From the NCBI GenBank assembly GCA_938010495.1, contig CALLUT010000059.1, positions 1 through 6,107 on the forward strand: a DNA stretch of 6,107 nt, written 5' to 3'. The translations under genes were made by a program, and so were the position numbers. How positions within the stretch are numbered: position 1 is the stretch's first letter; the number at the start of each line of letters is the position of its first letter. A model generated the notes under the pieces. That model had not been told where the DNA came from. It was given only the letters and a program-made list of their open reading frames with translations, and ran no database searches. Shown one piece after another: positions 1-6,107 of the stretch. This stretch comes from Candidatus Absconditabacterales bacterium (GTDB taxonomy: Bacteria; Patescibacteria; JAEDAM01; Absconditabacterales; Absconditicoccaceae).

Positions 1-189
1 GGTAAAAAGAAAATAACTTTCCTTTATTTAGATACCAAAGCAGATCGTGTAGAATTATTCGAAAATGTGTTAGCTTTTTCAGTAATGCAAGAGGAGTGGA
101 AAGGTATAGAATTTATGGTGTTTACTGGACTGTTGGAAGATTGAGAAAAGAAGAAATTTAGCGTTAGAAAAATGTTTGAAGTTGGGTAG
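1..189 (+). CDS. 3' end of an unidentified gene, OB-fold-like C-terminus (partial)
   Basis: Frame 1 is open from the window edge to TAG at 187-189, giving 62 residues of a C-terminus; the start lies outside the window. One in-frame TGA (142-144) is read as Gly, in the sequence LLEDGEKKKF; under the standard code the protein would lose 15 residues. The pattern GKKKITFLYLDT..DRVELF, followed by KGIEFMVFTGLLEDG, alternates hydrophobic strands in the manner of a nucleic-acid-binding OB-fold. It resembles the tRNA_anti-type OB domain near the C-terminus of the DNA polymerase III alpha subunit (DnaE), where a 'GKxxxFxxLxD...xVEVxxF' pattern is usual. This is a remote pattern match only: no catalytic part is visible and the real identity depends on upstream sequence. 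Its stop lies 2 nt from the stop of the convergent gene at 192-1208. Confidence 0.7.
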
Positions 190-191
190 TT

Positions 192-1208
192 TTATTTTTT
201 CTCAATGTATTTAATAATTAGTCATGGCATATTGTTTTCAATCATCTTTGGCTCTTTGCAATTAATATCTGTGAAAATATCTCATGTATCTGGTTTGGTA
301 TATCTTAATCATTGGTCAGTATTTATCCACATTCAGTCTAAATAATTACTTGCTGCATCTGCATCAGAATACAATGCACGACTTATTGGTAATTGATTCA
401 GTATTTGTTTTTTATCTTTAGGTGAACAGTTATTAATAATTAATTCTCATATTGTTCAATCATTCATTTGCACAAGAAAGTGACAATGTATATGTCACCA
501 CAAACTACTATCGTGATTTAAATTTCAATTTCTTTTTACTGATGACATAGTAAATATATCTGCTTTTTTGTTTAATAGTTTTTGAAATTGATCTTTAGAA
601 ATTTCACGAGAATGTGAAATATACATTTTTCCTCAAGTGATGTATCCAATTCATCTTCAGTCAGTAATTTTTGATTTTAATGATTCTTCTGTTCAAACTT
701 TAGATCAGTTGTCATAACATACTCAGGTGAGTGTAGTTTTTCAGTAAGAATCAAATGTTGGTCAATTAACTATCATCGTTATTTCTCTATGTGAACTGTG
801 TTCTTTATTGTAATCATCGAAATATTTTTGTATTGCTTTGATGTTAGGTATATATTGTTTTCCATCTCTTTCTGATGTTACTTTATAGTCAAATCGTTTT
901 ACTGCTTCTTGAGCACTTACAAACATTGATTTTGATTCCCATCATTGTGCTGCTTCAAATTTAACTAGTGTTCATACTTTTTTCCCATCAAGCAAAACTT
1001 CATAAGAATTGCTTCAAGTAGTAGATAATTTATCTATCTTCTTTCAAAGAGTTACTTTCTTATTTTGTGTTAAAATTTCACTTTCAGAAAGTGTATCCTT
1101 TATAAATTCTGGAAAATCAGCTATGGATAAAGAGTAGGTTTGAGCATCTTGAGCTTCATGTAATCTATTTGTTTCTTCTATGTGATAATCTTTATCGATT
1201 GGGATCAT
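192..1208 (-). CDS. Uncharacterised 338-residue protein, 20 UGA-encoded glycines
   Basis: With TGA as Gly the frame is open from ATG (1208-1206) to TAA (194-192), 338 residues. Under the standard code it has 20 internal stops, so it is invisible to ordinary gene callers. I do not recognise it with confidence. No signal peptide or membrane segment is evident, so it is probably cytoplasmic. The first 60 residues are charged and look helical. The central and C-terminal part shows INGxxF-type (residues 146-153, IVNGPTFD), GIGYITGGKMYI (186-197), a histidine-rich GHIHCHF (238-244), and AASNYLDGMW (285-294). The order 'NG..F', G-K, hydrophobic strand, then '.N.LDG' loosely recalls phosphodiester glycosidase (NAGPA-like) domains, but the Gly/Ser-rich loop after LDG typical of that family is missing, so this is a weak hypothesis. 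The first ATG after an AT-rich spacer was chosen as start; no Shine-Dalgarno sequence precedes it. It is separated by 95 nt from the pnp gene run and probably has its own promoter. Confidence 0.85.
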
Positions 1209-1303
1209 TAATTTTTATTATATAACAAAAAATTCTCATATTATATTTATAATATAAGTCAATATTTTATTTAAATAATTAGTTGTTACTTTTTAACAAA
1301 TAA
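1209..1303 (-). promoter_or_regulatory. AT-rich spacer with candidate promoter for the 338-residue gene
   Basis: Reading the minus strand there are two promoter-like arrangements. One is TTGACT (1262-1257), a 16-nt spacer and TATGAG (1240-1235), predicting a short leader of about 20 nt. The other is an exact TATAAT (1222-1217) only 8 nt before the ATG, with no recognisable -35 box; used alone it would give an essentially leaderless mRNA. In DNA this AT-rich, TATAAT-like strings arise easily by chance, so confidence is low. Confidence 0.3.
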
Positions 1304-1308
1304 TTATT
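1274..1308 (-). terminator. Long AT-rich palindrome, possible terminator after the DUF59 gene
   Basis: The arms AATAATTA-G-TTGTTA (1274-1288) and TAACAA-A-TAATTATT (1294-1308) are complementary at 14 of 15 positions, with one G/A mismatch and a 5-nt loop. The stem overlaps the stop codon of the DUF59 gene (1306-1304), so it would form at the very 3' end of the pnp run. It has few G-C pairs and no strong U-tract follows on the minus strand (only TTATTTAAAT), so it may be a weak terminator, a 3'-end-protecting hairpin, or just AT-rich chance symmetry. Confidence 0.4.
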
Positions 1309-1663
1309 CAAACATCCTTTGCAAATCTTCATCTTTAATCATTTTTGGAGATCGTAATGGATCAAACGTGATTTCTAATTTTACTTCCCACGCTGGATAG
1401 ACTTCAAGAATTGCATTTTCTGTCATTTGTTCAATCATCTCTCCCATTGGACATTGTGGAGTAGTGAAGGTCATTAGAATGCTAATGAGTGTATTATCAT
1501 CATCTATATCTATATTGTAGATGAGTCCCAATGTGAAAATATCTATAACTGGAAACTCAGGATCATACACTGTCATAAGTTGTTCTTCAATGATTTGCAT
1601 CATTGTAGGTTTTTCAGTTGTTACTTGTGCTAGTTTTGAAACTGGAGGAGTTTTTTTTGCCAT
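1304..1663 (-). CDS. MIP18/DUF59-family iron-sulfur cluster assembly protein (SufT/PaaD-like)
   Basis: This 119-residue protein belongs to the MIP18 (DUF59) family, small cytoplasmic proteins that help mature or deliver iron-sulfur clusters. The diagnostic core is visible: VYDPEFPV (32-39), TLGLIYNIDI (44-53), a strand SILMTFTTPQ (61-70) and the conserved cysteine in CPMGEM (Cys71), followed by a helix and the family's C-terminal 'DP..SP.M' segment (101-108). Two departures are noticeable: Thr44 where the family usually has Asp in 'DLGL', and Arg104 where many members have Trp. Residues 1-20 form a basic, Pro/Thr-rich extension before the domain. It is the only complete gene here with no in-frame TGA, but it has just two glycines (GGG and GGA). 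It starts 18 nt after the upstream membrane-protein gene and ends the pnp run. No sufBCD, iscS or other partner is in the window, so the exact role cannot be assigned. Confidence 0.92.
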   Translation of the reverse strand: MAKKTPPVSKLAQVTTEKPTMMQIIEEQLMTVYDPEFPVIDIFTLGLIYNIDIDDDNTLISILMTFTTPQCPMGEMIEQMTENAILEVYPAWEVKLEITFDPLRSPKMIKDEDLQRMFE

Positions 1664-1681
1664 GGATATATTATGAAAAAA

Positions 1682-2059
1682 TTATGATTGTTGCTTGCGA
1701 AAGTCTGCTGCAATAAGATATTGTAAGATAAGAAATACTATGATAAGCAAAATTCAAAGGATATTACTTCGTTGATCTATAATCATAAATGTTAAATTCA
1801 CAATCGTATACACTCATAGCATTAATGATAATTTGTAGCTGGCTGATGACTTTACATGATCATCATATGATGAAAATATCGACCAAAGAGCACGAAAGAA
1901 AAAGTAGGCAGCTCACCGAACCAACAGGAATACACCCAAAAATCAAAATCACAATCATAATGATGTATGTTCATAAACATTCACATAATTGTATAAGACT
2001 GAGAGTATTATTAACCCAAAGAATATTTTTATAAATGCTCAAACACTATATAAACGCAT
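1682..2059 (-). CDS. Small four-segment membrane protein
   Basis: With TGA as Gly, the frame runs from ATG (2059-2057) to TAA (1684-1682), 125 residues with seven UGA glycines; under the standard code nothing here survives on this strand. I do not recognise the family. Hydrophobic stretches at about 8-26, 34-56, 76-95 and 99-118 indicate four transmembrane segments, separated by a short polar loop (IFSSYDDHVKSSASYK, 61-76) and ending in a basic/polar tail (DFRKQQS). Three UGA glycines (LGLGFGF, residues 34-40) form a Gly-rich, helix-packing-like face in the second segment. The start lies 2 nt after the stop of the 260-residue membrane protein, so translation is probably coupled and the two proteins could act together. 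Open reading frames on the plus strand over 1789-2213 are antisense shadows of this gene and the preceding one. Confidence 0.85.
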
Positions 2060-2061
2060 GA

Positions 2062-2844
2062 TTAATCGATATCAACATCAATATCCACTTCGTCTGCCTC
2101 TTCTTCATCGACAAGTACTTCCTGGAGTGATGGAATATAAAAGAAGTTACTTCAGTTTTGATAGAACTTATAATAAATTTTTTCCCAAAGTCAGTGCCAA
2201 AATGGAAGCATAGCATATGCTAACACTGGAGGAAGAGCGAGTAGTATATGAGATGAACGTCCAGCAGTGCTATCCATTATTTTATAGGCTATTCAAAAGA
2301 ATATCACTCAAACAACTAATCATATAGCCGCTCATAAGACATGAACAGCAGAGTAGTTTGGGTTTGTACTCATTTCAATCAAAGCGAATGATAAGAATAC
2401 AGTAAATATAATATGAAATGCTAATACAAAGAATAATTGATCTATGCCTCAAGCAAAAAGAACATAGAGTCATAAGAATAGTACAAACATTATAATATTT
2501 GCAAAGAGAACTAGGCTAAACATTTTTCACATGTCGTAGTACTTATCTGTATATATTAAGTTATAGATTCCAGCTAGGATAATTGATCCAATAAATGTAC
2601 CTAAGAAAGCAATTATAATGAGAATTAGTGGGAGTAGTGGATTTATTGTTCCTGCTCAAAGAATTTGACTACTCATAGCTTCTTCGATTATTCATCATAC
2701 TAGAATAAGTATAATAAACACCAAAAAAGAAACGAATAATCATGTTACTAAACCTAATCAAGATCTAATAAAAATGCTCCATCGTGAAGGATTAAATGGT
2801 CCTACTTCAAATTCTTGATCTAATGCTGTATTGTCTGGAGTCAT
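2062..2844 (-). CDS. Six-segment integral membrane protein with acidic C-terminal tail
   Basis: With TGA as Gly, the frame runs from ATG (2844-2842) to TAA (2064-2062), 260 residues with 14 UGA glycines, including a tandem pair in LVGGIIEE (48-55). I do not recognise the family. Hydrophobic stretches at about 29-52, 69-94, 107-131, 136-156, 166-187 and 199-217 suggest six transmembrane segments. The N-terminus is soluble and polar (MTPDNTALDQEFEVGPFNPS). The C-terminus ends in a markedly acidic tail (residues 246-260, DEEEADEVDIDVDID), which could bind cations or a basic partner. The gene lies 33 nt after the lipoprotein gene and 2 nt before the next membrane-protein gene. No transporter or enzyme motif could be seen, so function is left open. 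Confidence 0.88.
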
Positions 2845-2877
2845 GTTTGTACATGAATAAACATAAAACGTACTATA

Positions 2878-3435
2878 TTATCAACACTCTAACGATTTAA
2901 TAATGTTTTTGAATAGTTTTTCTTGTTCTGCTTCATCTGTCGCATATGATATGATATATCAATATTCATTAGCAACAAATTGGTATTGGTGGATATAATA
3001 TTGAGAAGTTCACTGGTAAAATGTGTCTGTTACTTCGAATTGAATCATCACTCATGTAATTTCTTCTTCCAAACACATAAATGAGTATATTTCTTTTTCT
3101 CAAGGAGCATATCATACAAGTTGAGAACGAAGTTTTTGTTCGTTTGCTGTAGCAAACTGATCAAAATTGAGTGATGGATCTATGGTTGATTTTGTAATTA
3201 CTAAGTTTTTATCAAATCACTCAGGATTTGTTATTTTGAAAGATCTCAATACTTTATTGATGATTTGTTTATTCTCAACCAGTGATGGTGGGATGGATTC
3301 ATAGGTTTCATCAAGTGTTAGATTGAATGTATCGAAAGTGATATCTTGTCATACAGATGAAGATCATCAAAAACATCCAACAAGAAGTAGGGGAGCAGTA
3401 AGTATAATCGCTAGTGAAACGATTTTTTTACGCAT
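2878..3435 (-). CDS. Lipoprotein, PsbP/DcrB-like (tentative)
   Basis: This 185-residue protein begins with a clear lipoprotein signal: basic MRKK, a hydrophobic stretch (SLAIILTAPLL), and the lipobox LVGC with Cys21 as the lipidated residue, followed by a flexible FGGSSSVG linker. It should be anchored on the outer face of the cytoplasmic membrane. The mature part has an early IPPSLV segment, a middle strand region (GVMIQFEVTD, 128-137) and a final pattern YIISYATDEAEQEKLFKNIIKSLE, which resembles the C-terminal strand-helix of PsbP/DcrB-type domains; the homology is inferred from pattern only. There are ten UGA glycines, two directly after the lipobox Cys-Phe. The penultimate codon is TGA (2883-2881), immediately followed by TAA (2880-2878). 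The ATG overlaps the pnp stop region by 8 nt, which indicates coupled translation in one operon and fixes the start. Confidence 0.9.
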
Positions 3436-5587
3436 TTGATGATTTATCGGATGAAGCATCAGGAGTTGGAGTTAGATTTTTTACTGCTACTTTTCATTGA
3501 GCATCAATATCAATAACTTCTACTTTTAGAGGTTGTCCAACTTTGTAGAGAGCAGCTACATTTTCAATATATCAAGCTCATAATTGTTTAACATGGCAGA
3601 GTCATGATTTCTTATTTCCAAGAGCAACAAATACTCAGTATTTTTCTACTCTTGTTATTGTTCACTCAATAACATCTCATTTTACAGGTTTCCAAACAGT
3701 TCCCATTACTAGTTCTAGAGCTTTCTTTGCATCTTCTTGGTTGTCTGCAGTAATTACTCATGATCCATCATCTTGAAGATCGATTTTCACATTTGTTTCT
3801 CTAATAATTTCTTGAATAGTTGATCATCATGACCCAATTACTGTTCTTACTTCTTCAGGTTTTACATTGAATTGAAGAAGAGCAGGAGCAGAAGGATTGA
3901 GTTCTTTTCTTGGTTCAGAAATAGTTTTCATCATATAAGCAAGAATCGCTGTTCTTCAAATTTGTGCTTTATCAAGCATTTCTTCTAATTTTTCTACTCA
4001 TAGTCATTTGAGTTTTGTATCCATTTGGATAGCTGTCATTCCTTCGTCTGTACCAGCAAGTTTGAAGTCCATATCACCTGTAAAGTCTTCTGTTCATTTA
4101 ATGTCTGTAAGTACTACAGCTTGTGTATCATCAGCCATAAGACCCATTGCGATACCACTTACTGGTTTCTTTAAAGGTACTCATCATGCCATCATAGCAA
4201 GAGTAGAACCACATACAGCAGCCATAGAAGTTGATCATCCTGATCCAAGTACTTCAGAAACAACTCTCATTGTATATGGGAAGTGTTCAGCATCAGGCAA
4301 CATTGCTTCGATAGCTTTTTCTGCTAATCTCCCATGTCCAACTTCACGTCTATTTGTTCCTCTAATCATATTTGCTTCGTTGTTTGAGAACGGAGGGAAT
4401 TTATAATGGTGGAACCATCTAGATTCTGTTTGGTCATGTTCCATACCATCTTTGATTTCTACATCACCAGGAGAACCTAGTGTAAGATATGCTAGTACTT
4501 GTGTATCTCATCTCCAGAAAAGAGCAGTACCATGTGAATCTGGAACTGTATCTATTTCACAGTGGATTTGTCTGATATCATCAACTCATCTTCCATCAAC
4601 TCTTATCCCTTCTGAAAGCGTTCTTTCTCTAATCCATCCTTTTATAACAAGGAAGAATGCTTCACGAACATGACCAGGTTTCCAGTCATTTGAATCATCA
4701 TCTAATTTTTCAGCAAGAGCTTCTTTTATTTCATCTTCATATGATTTATATGTAGCATCCCAATGATTTTTTTCTACAACTCAATGTAATGCTTCAAGTT
4801 TTTCATCACTAAGTAATTCTCTAATTGCAGCTATCATATCATCAGCTGGCTTATTTTTTGTAATAGTTTGAGGAGTAATTGTACATTGTGCTAGGAATTC
4901 ATTTTGAATTGCACAAAGTTCTGCGATTGCTTCTTGAGCTAAACGCATTCATCATTTAATTACGTCCATTGGAGTTTCATTCCCTCATGCTTCGATCATG
5001 TTTATCTTTGTTGCTGTACCAGCAACATGAAGATCCATAATTGAATGTTCAGCTTGAGATTGAGTCATATTTACAACGTATTCACCATCGATATATCAAA
5101 TTCTTACTCAACCAATTGGTCATTCGAATGGTATACCAGCAAGCATAGTTCATACAGAAGCACCAAGAATAGAAAGTTCCCCAGGAGAATGTTCTAAATC
5201 TAATGAAAGCGGTGAAATAGTAATTACAACATCATTGATCATTCCCTTTGGAAACATAGGTCTCATAGGTCTGTCAGTTAGTCTACAATAGAGGATAGTT
5301 TCGTCTGATGGTCTTCATTCTCTTTTTCTATAGCGTCATCAACCAATTTTTCAAGCAGCATAATAACTTTCTCTAAAATCGATTCCAAGAGGGAATCGTT
5401 CTTTGTTTTCATCTGGGTTTTTATTCATAACTACTGTTACAAGAAGTTTTGTTCCTTCCATAGTAACTTCAACAGCACCATCACAATGAGGAGCTAGTTT
5501 CCCAGTTTTTAAAGTAATTTTTTTGCCACGCCATGTAGCTTCATGAATAATTTCATTGAACTCTTTCTTTTGAATTTCTTGTACCAT
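3428..5587 (-). CDS. pnp: Polyribonucleotide nucleotidyltransferase (PNPase), UGA read as Gly
   Basis: PNPase degrades RNA 3' to 5' by phosphorolysis, releasing nucleoside diphosphates, as a ring-shaped trimer in the cytoplasm. The 719-residue frame is full length for the family and has every domain: RNase PH 1 (about 1-230, with KREGRPSDE and RLTDRPMRPMFP), the helical linker (about 240-320), RNase PH 2 (about 327-560), KH (about 577-632, motif VIGSGGSTI with G585-G588) and S1 (about 637-705, GDVIEGTITRVEKYGVFV and CHVKQL), then a short Ser/Asp tail. The catalytic residues equivalent to E. coli Asp486, Asp492 and Lys494 are present as Asp501, Asp507 and Lys509 in EDFTGDMDFK. Thirty-one codons are TGA; many fall on family-invariant glycines (REGRP, DGRG, GSGGS, the KH GxxG loop), while tryptophan is encoded by TGG. 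The segment normally read KIPGGFFKREGRP is KIGGGRYRKREGRP, one residue longer. ATG at 5587 is the first in frame; there is no Shine-Dalgarno sequence. It heads a five-gene run. Plus-strand frames over 4008-4673 are its shadows. Confidence 0.98.
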
Positions 5588-5595
5588 GTGTTTTA

Positions 5596-5614
5596 TGAAC
5601 GATAAAAACGTTCA
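5596..5614 (-). promoter_or_regulatory. Start-proximal hairpin in the pnp leader
   Basis: Perfect 6-bp arms TGAACG (5596-5601) and CGTTCA (5609-5614) enclose a 7-nt loop. On the pnp mRNA the hairpin ends 8 nt before the ATG, exactly where a ribosome would load, so it could restrict translation initiation. The stem is short and only moderately stable. Confidence 0.45.
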
Positions 5615-5628
5615 ATCATGCTCTATTG

Positions 5629-5665
5629 GTGGGAAGAGAGAAATAGGTCGTACGTAAGTTCCCAC
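5629..5665 (-). promoter_or_regulatory. Competing 7-bp pairing overlapping the 15-bp hairpin
   Basis: GTGGGAA (5629-5635) and TTCCCAC (5659-5665) are perfectly complementary. One arm lies in the loop of the 15-bp hairpin and the other just outside it, so the pairing is either a pseudoknot or an alternative to the long stem. With only 2 nt joining the long stem to the outer arm, a full pseudoknot would be strained; alternation between structures is more plausible. The significance is inferred. Confidence 0.35.
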
Positions 5666-5692
5666 GTTTTTTGAACATACGACCTATTTCTC
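5638..5692 (-). repeat. Perfect 15-bp inverted repeat in the pnp leader
   Basis: The arms GAGAAATAGGTCGTA (5638-5652) and TACGACCTATTTCTC (5678-5692) are exactly complementary, with a 25-nt loop. In the pnp mRNA this forms a long hairpin about 50 nt upstream of the start codon. No U-tract follows directly on the minus strand, so it does not look like an intrinsic terminator. In E. coli and relatives, the pnp leader has a long stem cut by RNase III and then used by PNPase to repress its own mRNA; a similar role is an inference here. A double-stranded DNA operator is the alternative. Confidence 0.75.
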
Positions 5693-5740
5693 AGCTCCAA
5701 AACCCAAAAAGAGTCATGAGAACATTCTTAGTTTTTATTG

Positions 5741-5769
5741 ATTTAATGGGTGAAAGCAACTGAAGGCAA
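5741..5769 (-). promoter_or_regulatory. Candidate pnp promoter
   Basis: On the minus strand, TTGCCT (5769-5764), a 17-nt spacer and TTAAAT (5746-5741) match the sigma70 boxes at 4 of 6 positions each. A start near 5734 would give a leader of roughly 147 nt that includes all of the hairpins. The match is mediocre and other AT-rich boxes cannot be excluded. Confidence 0.3.
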
Positions 5770-5798
5770 GACGAAATGATAATTTTATGCTGATTTTT

Positions 5799-5827
5799 TT
5801 GCGTTTTTTTAAATTAGTTGATATAAT
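5799..5827 (+). promoter_or_regulatory. Candidate sigma70-type promoter for the rightward gene
   Basis: TTGCGT (5799-5804), a 17-nt spacer and an exact TATAAT (5822-5827) are correctly spaced. Transcription would begin near 5834, leaving a leader of about 30 nt before the ATG at 5863, with no Shine-Dalgarno tract in it. Confidence 0.5.
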
Positions 5828-5862
5828 TAATGCAGTAAATTTTAATTGCTATCTATTGATCC

Positions 5863-6107
5863 ATGAAAACAAGATCAAAAAAGTTATTTCTCTATTCTTT
5901 AATTTTGTGTTTATTCGCTGTGCTATGATTCTTCTGAAAAGGAATGATCATGACAGACACGAATGAACCTATTCTTAAAACACAATCTGCACCAGAGGGT
6001 GGTACAGACGGTCTAACGGATAGTCTCGTTGATAGTCTTGAAGAGGCTGGAGATACTACTGTTTGTATAGAAACTACTCTGATAGATCTCGCTGGAGAAA
6101 AAGCGAA
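5863..6107 (+). CDS. Exported or membrane-anchored protein, 5' part (partial)
   Basis: The frame opens at ATG 5863 and is still open at the window edge (81 full codons). The N-terminus has a basic start (MKTRSKK) followed by a hydrophobic segment (about residues 8-26, LFLYSLILCLFAVLGFFGK), typical of a signal peptide or a single membrane anchor. There is no convincing lipobox around Cys16, since it lacks the small residue before Cys. After this comes a low-complexity, Gly/Asp/Ser/Thr-rich acidic region (SAPEGGTDGLTDSLVDSLEEAGDTT), like the linkers of secreted surface proteins. Two TGA codons (5926-5928 and 5935-5937) lie inside the hydrophobic segment and are read as Gly; under the standard code the product would end after 21 residues. 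A later ATG (5944 region) exists but would discard the signal. The function cannot be told from this fragment. Confidence 0.8.

Follow-up and report, generated by a model that had tools for sequence, protein, structure and literature searches.

UGA as glycine and CGA and CGG as predicted tryptophan codons in a genome fragment of an Absconditabacteria (SR1) bacterium

The window analysed here covers positions 1 to 6,107 of contig CALLUT010000059.1 (assembly GCA_938010495.1, Candidatus Absconditabacterales bacterium), which carries eight protein-coding frames, among them pnp, encoding polynucleotide phosphorylase (PNPase), and a gene of the DUF59 family. Comparison of its codons with those of homologous genes suggests that it comes from an Absconditabacteria (SR1) bacterium with three reassigned codons, UGA for glycine and both CGA and CGG (together CGR) for tryptophan, a reading to which we give a probability of about 0.94. 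Codon-to-residue comparison shows what UGA means in the window and what CGA means both there and across the clade; for the one CGG of the window, the meaning rests on one TGG aligned with it. The finding as a whole is real and mostly known: the code itself has been described before, and the new part is a shift in usage between CGR and TGG.

Glycine was reportedly assigned to UGA in Absconditabacteria (SR1) and BD1-5 by Campbell and by Rinke in 2013. An earlier note on this DNA, made from its letters, called the assignment established, as indeed it is: there is peptide evidence for it in a BD1-5 member (Hanke 2014, PMC4032931), and it has been placed in the Genome Taxonomy Database (GTDB) class JAEDAM01 and not in the GTDB class Gracilibacteria (PMC11393006). 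CGA and CGG as tryptophan codons were predicted for Absconditabacteria by Shulgina and Eddy in 2021 (PMC8629427), who count just a handful of bacterial sense-codon changes, and the prediction is repeated in PMC13092985; within the open-licence literature, these two papers were, beside an unrelated review, the only prior reports found that join CGA/CGG, tryptophan and Absconditabacteria.

Genome contigs searched with the pnp protein as query yielded 35 loci for comparison. The nearest named relative is SR1 bacterium CSBr16_97 (locus L001, genome G001), with 64% identity, followed at 42-52% identity by 15 further loci whose pnp contains in-frame TGA, several of them titled SR1. We refer to these 16 genomes, G001 included, as SR1-like, a label given by pnp similarity and in-frame TGA rather than by a tree; some of them carry just 'bacterium' or 'Patescibacteria' as a title. 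The gene order pnp-g6-g5-g4-DUF59 is kept in L001, the last four genes being 51-75% identical. As its core gene pnp is closest to Absconditabacteria (SR1) by best match, the window is supported as the DNA of an SR1-type bacterium, one of the two groups that the earlier note had named.

Open reading frames (ORFs) were called under NCBI translation table 25 and compared with those under table 11. The eight table-25 frames tile the whole window without a single internal TAA or TAG (Table 1), and the seven visible stops are all TAA (six) or TAG (one), the two kinds of stop that had been noted. Under table 11 the same region breaks into fragments, with the DUF59 gene alone intact. Counted with pnp from the ATG at 5587, the true frames hold 85 in-frame TGA, gene by gene exactly the numbers reported earlier (1, 20, 0, 7, 14, 10, 31 and 2); the pnp ORF as listed begins at a GTG upstream of this ATG and then has 32 TGA in place of 31, and an ATG stands at the corresponding place in the pnp frame of L001. 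In the other five frames of these genes TGA makes up 254 of 671 stop triplets, a ratio at which the chance of all 85 in-frame stop triplets being TGA is about 10^-36. Copies of the genes generated by an order-1 Markov model had a mean of 72 TGA and 81 TAA plus TAG in frame, with at least 60 TAA plus TAG in every one of 300 runs. We accordingly see next to no chance that UGA is a stop codon here and that the genes are decaying or frame-broken; such a state would account for the fragments under table 11, but in-frame TAA and TAG number 0 against about 81 expected, the match of pnp to the PNPase equivalog model reaches 770 bits over residues 42-729 of its frame, and five genes stand in one order in L001 at 51-75% identity.

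That these codons are read as glycine is supported by the residues opposite them. With 17 standard-code PNPase homologues as outgroup, window pnp TGA codons fall on columns where Gly is commonest in 19 of 31 cases, which bears out an alignment check proposed earlier, and on columns where Ala is commonest in six; GGN codons behave similarly, with 23 of 38 on Gly-commonest columns. The glycine of KREGRP and both glycines of the KH domain motif are encoded by TGA, in columns where 16 or 17 of the 17 outgroups have Gly. A third motif, VDGRG, had also been named as a conserved site, and here the claim did not stand, as the TGA encodes the second G and the column is Gly in just 3 of 17. Against L001, 62 window TGA could be aligned, 41 with TGA and 11 with GGN. 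UGA is thus found at conserved Gly columns and never as a visible stop, and makes up 57% (86/152, with pnp from the upstream GTG) of TGA plus GGN codons in the window.

The reading of CGR as tryptophan begins with six codons of the window's accepted frames, one of them CGG. In the DUF59 gene, codon 104 is a CGA that falls on the conserved Trp of a DPxW motif, which is Trp in 4/4 PDB homologues, and L001 also has CGA there. In g4, CGG at codon 48 faces TGG in L001 and CGA at codon 97 faces CGA; CGA at codon 21 of g5 likewise faces CGA, and the pnp CGA (codon 64, numbered as elsewhere from the ATG) faces CGG. In this alignment, which was made with CGR read as W, the five CGR codons that have an L001 partner (g2 has none there) are opposite four CGR, one TGG and no Arg, and the eight CGR codons of L001 are opposite four CGR, four TGG and no Arg; window codons AGR and CGY are opposite Arg in L001 in 30 of 38 cases. 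With CGR masked, the partner cells of window CGR over all genomes (n=20) hold four CGR, one TGG, 15 Phe or Tyr and no Arg. Among the 17 recoded PNPases, likewise with CGR masked, 390 partner cells hold CGR (182), TGG (113), Phe (60), Tyr (13) and Val, Leu or Ala (22), with Arg in none. Codon 358 of pnp, directly before an RGDTQ stretch, is TGG, CGA or CGG in all 17 recoded PNPases and T, S, Q, K or R in the 17 standard-code ones, and thus looks like a clade-specific Trp.

An independent comparison drew on valyl-, isoleucyl- and leucyl-tRNA synthetases (ValRS, IleRS, LeuRS), sought in 30 genomes, at columns that are at least 85% Trp, Arg or Gly in the standard-code rows. It covers 15 SR1-like genomes; the window has none of these genes and is excluded. 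At Trp columns the 208 SR1-like cells hold CGA (93), CGG (17), TGG (68), an Arg codon of the AGR/CGY type (1) and others (29). At Arg columns (321 cells) there are no CGR codons, 253 AGR/CGY and 68 others, and at Gly columns (427 cells) there are 281 GGN, 118 TGA and 28 others, with TGA at 0/208 of the Trp cells. As a control, standard-code rows set against one another had CGR at 1/323 Trp cells and 101/387 Arg cells. CGA and CGG therefore lie at Trp and not Arg positions, in the window on the strength of six codons, one of them CGG, and in the clade in PNPase and the synthetases, and table 25 as a whole code, with CGA and CGG as Arg, does not describe these genes. The ratio of CGR to TGG at Trp columns varies among genomes, from 1:14 in G005 and 5:9 in G013 to 12-14 CGR and 1-3 TGG in G002, G007, G009 and G016.

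Most of the Trp cells come from LeuRS (14 columns by 11 SR1-like rows), with ValRS contributing 3 by 15 and IleRS 11 by 2; IleRS gives few cells because its strict limit was reached in only 2/16 SR1-like genomes. None of the three synthetases had a locus in G003, and leuS had none in G004, G010, G011 or G015 either. Partial or cross-hitting valS loci (L225-L227), a second ileS copy (L240) and second pieces of leuS (L265-L267) were dropped from the counts, and the G006 valS match crosses a TAA, so that its longest frame was taken.

No tRNA genes were found in the window, and the translation apparatus was examined in the relatives. ARAGORN finds 37 tRNAs in the G001 stretches, which were assigned by the tRNA identity rules of PMC8629427 with base positions set by hand. 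The tRNA(UCA) has G1:C72, C2:G71, G3:C70 and U73, which is the glycine type; tRNA(UCG) and tRNA(CCG) have A1:U72 and G73 and lack A20, the tryptophan type; and the tRNAs with anticodons GCG, UCU and CCU have A73 and A20, the arginine type. ARAGORN names by anticodon alone and calls the UCA tRNA SeC (selenocysteine) and the UCG and CCG tRNAs Arg (L069:2118-2192, L083:251-324 and L075:100-172); the identity bases are those of Gly and Trp. Patterns of anticodon plus acceptor bases, combined with ARAGORN and leaving uncounted the matches that ARAGORN contradicted (e.g., both in G015), place a UCG tRNA with G73 in 15/16 and a CCG tRNA with G73 in 13/16 SR1-like genomes, N20 having been read in G001 only; a UCA tRNA with a Gly acceptor end is found in 12/16 by a strict pattern that can miss variants. 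A DNA search of the 16 genomes with the G001 tRNA(UCG) recovered its own copy alone. As to where the UCG and CCG tRNAs came from, pairwise scores against the 37 G001 tRNAs were low and scattered, and no origin is claimed.

The release factor 2 (RF2) cut-off was reached in 0/16 SR1-like genomes, whose completeness is not stated, versus 10/14 control genomes. Weaker matches to the RF2 model occur in 15/16, and all three that were tested score higher as release factor 1 (RF1), exceeding the cut-off of one RF1 model; one of the three also passes a second RF1 model. A tryptophanyl-tRNA synthetase (TrpRS) over the cut-off is present once in each of the 16 genomes, G011 having a second, weak match. 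The tRNA set, the absence of an RF2-grade match and the single TrpRS are thus seen in relatives, and the window's own cell would be expected to have the same parts. In such a cell RF2 would have been lost, with RF1 terminating at UAA and UAG; tRNA-Gly(UCA) would decode UGA, alongside tRNA-Trp(CCA) on UGG; the UCG and CCG tRNAs, bearing Trp identity bases, would presumably be charged by the single TrpRS; and CGU/CGC (tRNA GCG) and AGA/AGG (UCU, CCU) would remain arginine. That a single TrpRS should serve all three anticodons (CCA, UCG and CCG) becomes a directly testable proposition.

These data leave hardly any chance that UGA is tryptophan, as in table 4. A database copy of the g2 protein, P0001, agrees letter for letter with a full-length translation under table 4, in which the 20 TGA sites read Trp; set against this, TGA in the synthetases stands at 118/427 outgroup-Gly cells versus 0/208 outgroup-Trp cells, and the tRNA(UCA) of the nearest relative has Gly identity bases. 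Two relatives of g2, P0002 and P0003, have W opposite seven and six aligned TGA sites, so that these two records may be mistranslated as well. The expectation that standard annotation would yield fragments accordingly holds under table 11, the DUF59 gene excepted, and fails for this database copy of g2, full length by way of table 4.

Several observations weigh against tryptophan as the meaning of CGR, or against extending the full system to this cell. The window's CGR codons are few, and the tRNA and release factor genes come from relatives. Outgroup PNPases have Phe or Tyr opposite the window pnp CGA, and are not Trp opposite its seven TGG either, so that pnp supports Trp only via TGG exchange within the clade. 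For the g2 CGA, one relative has W at the aligned position and another has L. In a wider ortholog set, which excludes pairs below 35% or above 95% identity, Arg codons stand at 20/1564 CGR partner cells. Finally, the tested DUF59 column is R in 95 and W in 25 of the 120 listed proteins (of 252 matches), which include the window's own copy and are protein records whose underlying DNA was not seen; we read the R at this column as mistranslated CGR.

The last observation, together with the application of table 25 to Absconditabacteria in papers such as PMC10746230, is what plain table 25, with UGA as Gly and CGA/CGG still Arg, has in its favour. We give it a very slim chance, as CGR is opposite Arg in 0/390 PNPase cells and absent from the 321 cells of synthetase Arg columns, and the UCG and CCG tRNAs of G001 have G73 and lack A20. 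It is also very unlikely, if a little less so, that UGA is Gly and CGR ambiguous, read partly as Trp and partly as Arg or another aromatic residue. Phe and Tyr at 130/1564 CGR partner cells, the 20 cells with Arg codons and the G37 of tRNA(UCG), unlike tRNA-Trp(CCA), would suit such ambiguity, but TGG behaves alike, with Phe and Tyr at 154/890 cells, and no CGR occurs in the synthetase Arg columns. In G001, tRNA(UCG) (L083:251-324) has G37 and C38, and both tRNA(CCG) and tRNA-Trp(CCA) have A37 and A38.

A code with UGA as glycine and CGA and CGG as tryptophan resembles the table-25 system in that window UGA lies at Gly columns and the nearest relative has a tRNA-Gly(UCA) and lacks an RF2-grade match, and differs from it in the meaning of CGA and CGG. 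It resembles the system predicted in PMC8629427 in its two codons, their meaning and, in the relatives, the tRNA types, atop UGA as glycine. On the codon comparisons, the window's code should be given as table 25 with both CGA and CGG read as W, in place of plain table 25, which on these bacteria would put Arg at Trp sites. What the earlier note called code 25 was thus right for UGA and incomplete as a full code, and TGG, which it named for Trp, is in use but shares that role with CGA and CGG.

PMC8629427 describes reassigned codons that have not yet rebounded, with CGA below 37 per 10,000 in every species and CGG below 7 with a single exception. Unlike this picture of rare codons at an early stage, CGR exceeds TGG in most of the relatives. 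Among ORFs with orthologues, CGR makes up more than half of CGR plus TGG in 11/16 genomes (445/717 overall), and CGA exceeds 37 per 10,000 in 12/16; when every long frame at the pnp loci is counted, the former holds in 10/16, with L001 at 44%. These figures are ORF counts rather than counts at Pfam columns, for several genomes they come from two or three ORFs, and every CGR is taken as Trp; the synthetase Trp-column count (110 CGR versus 68 TGG) is free of the last weakness. As CGR exceeds TGG in many relatives, the reassignment appears to be past the stage described as not yet rebounded. We consider it probable that CGA and CGG have overtaken UGG in a majority of the 16 SR1-like genomes, making the reassignment mature rather than early, and that the window and its nearest relative represent a low-GC lineage in which UGA is the majority Gly codon. 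Captured codons that outnumber the original one would give a picture of a finished reassignment.

The share of TGA in TGA plus GGN is 68-72% in the G001 stretches and 54-57% in G013, and in the other genomes it is 14-30% when counted in ORFs with orthologues; counted in all long frames, it is 57% in L005 (G005) and 39% in L012. Over 17 loci, with kinship uncorrected, Spearman coefficients with GC content are -0.56 for UGA share and 0.49 for CGR share. If wobble of tRNA-Gly(UCA) on UGG had pushed Trp into CGR, a larger UGA share should go with a larger CGR share; the coefficient between the two is -0.55 (same loci, kinship again uncorrected), and this negative relation leaves the idea unsupported.

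Table 1. Protein-coding frames of the window under NCBI translation table 25.
Feature	Coordinates	Strand	Family match	Codons and remarks
Partial gene, 3' end	1..189	+	No Pfam/NCBIfam family	1 in-frame TGA; stop TAG
g2, 338 aa	192..1208	-	No Pfam/NCBIfam family	20 TGA; 1 CGA (codon 105)
DUF59/SufT-like Fe-S assembly protein	1304..1663	-	PF01883 (1.7e-13)	0 TGA; CGA at codon 104
g4, 125 aa	1682..2059	-	No family	7 TGA; CGG codon 48, CGA codon 97; membrane-like by eye
g5, 260 aa	2062..2844	-	No family	14 TGA; 1 CGA (codon 21); membrane-like by eye
g6, 193 aa	2878..3459	-	No family	10 TGA; 0 CGR; lipoprotein-like by eye
pnp, polynucleotide phosphorylase, from ATG	3428..5587	-	NF008805 (2.1e-231)	31 TGA; 7 TGG; 1 CGA
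Partial gene, 5' part	5863..6105	+	No Pfam/NCBIfam family	2 TGA

The frames of pnp and g6 overlap by up to 32 bases (3428-3459), and an inner ATG in g6 would reduce the overlap to 8. A search for relatives of g2, with 2893 candidates from 5.8 billion proteins, yielded two at an E value of 1e-3 besides g2 itself.

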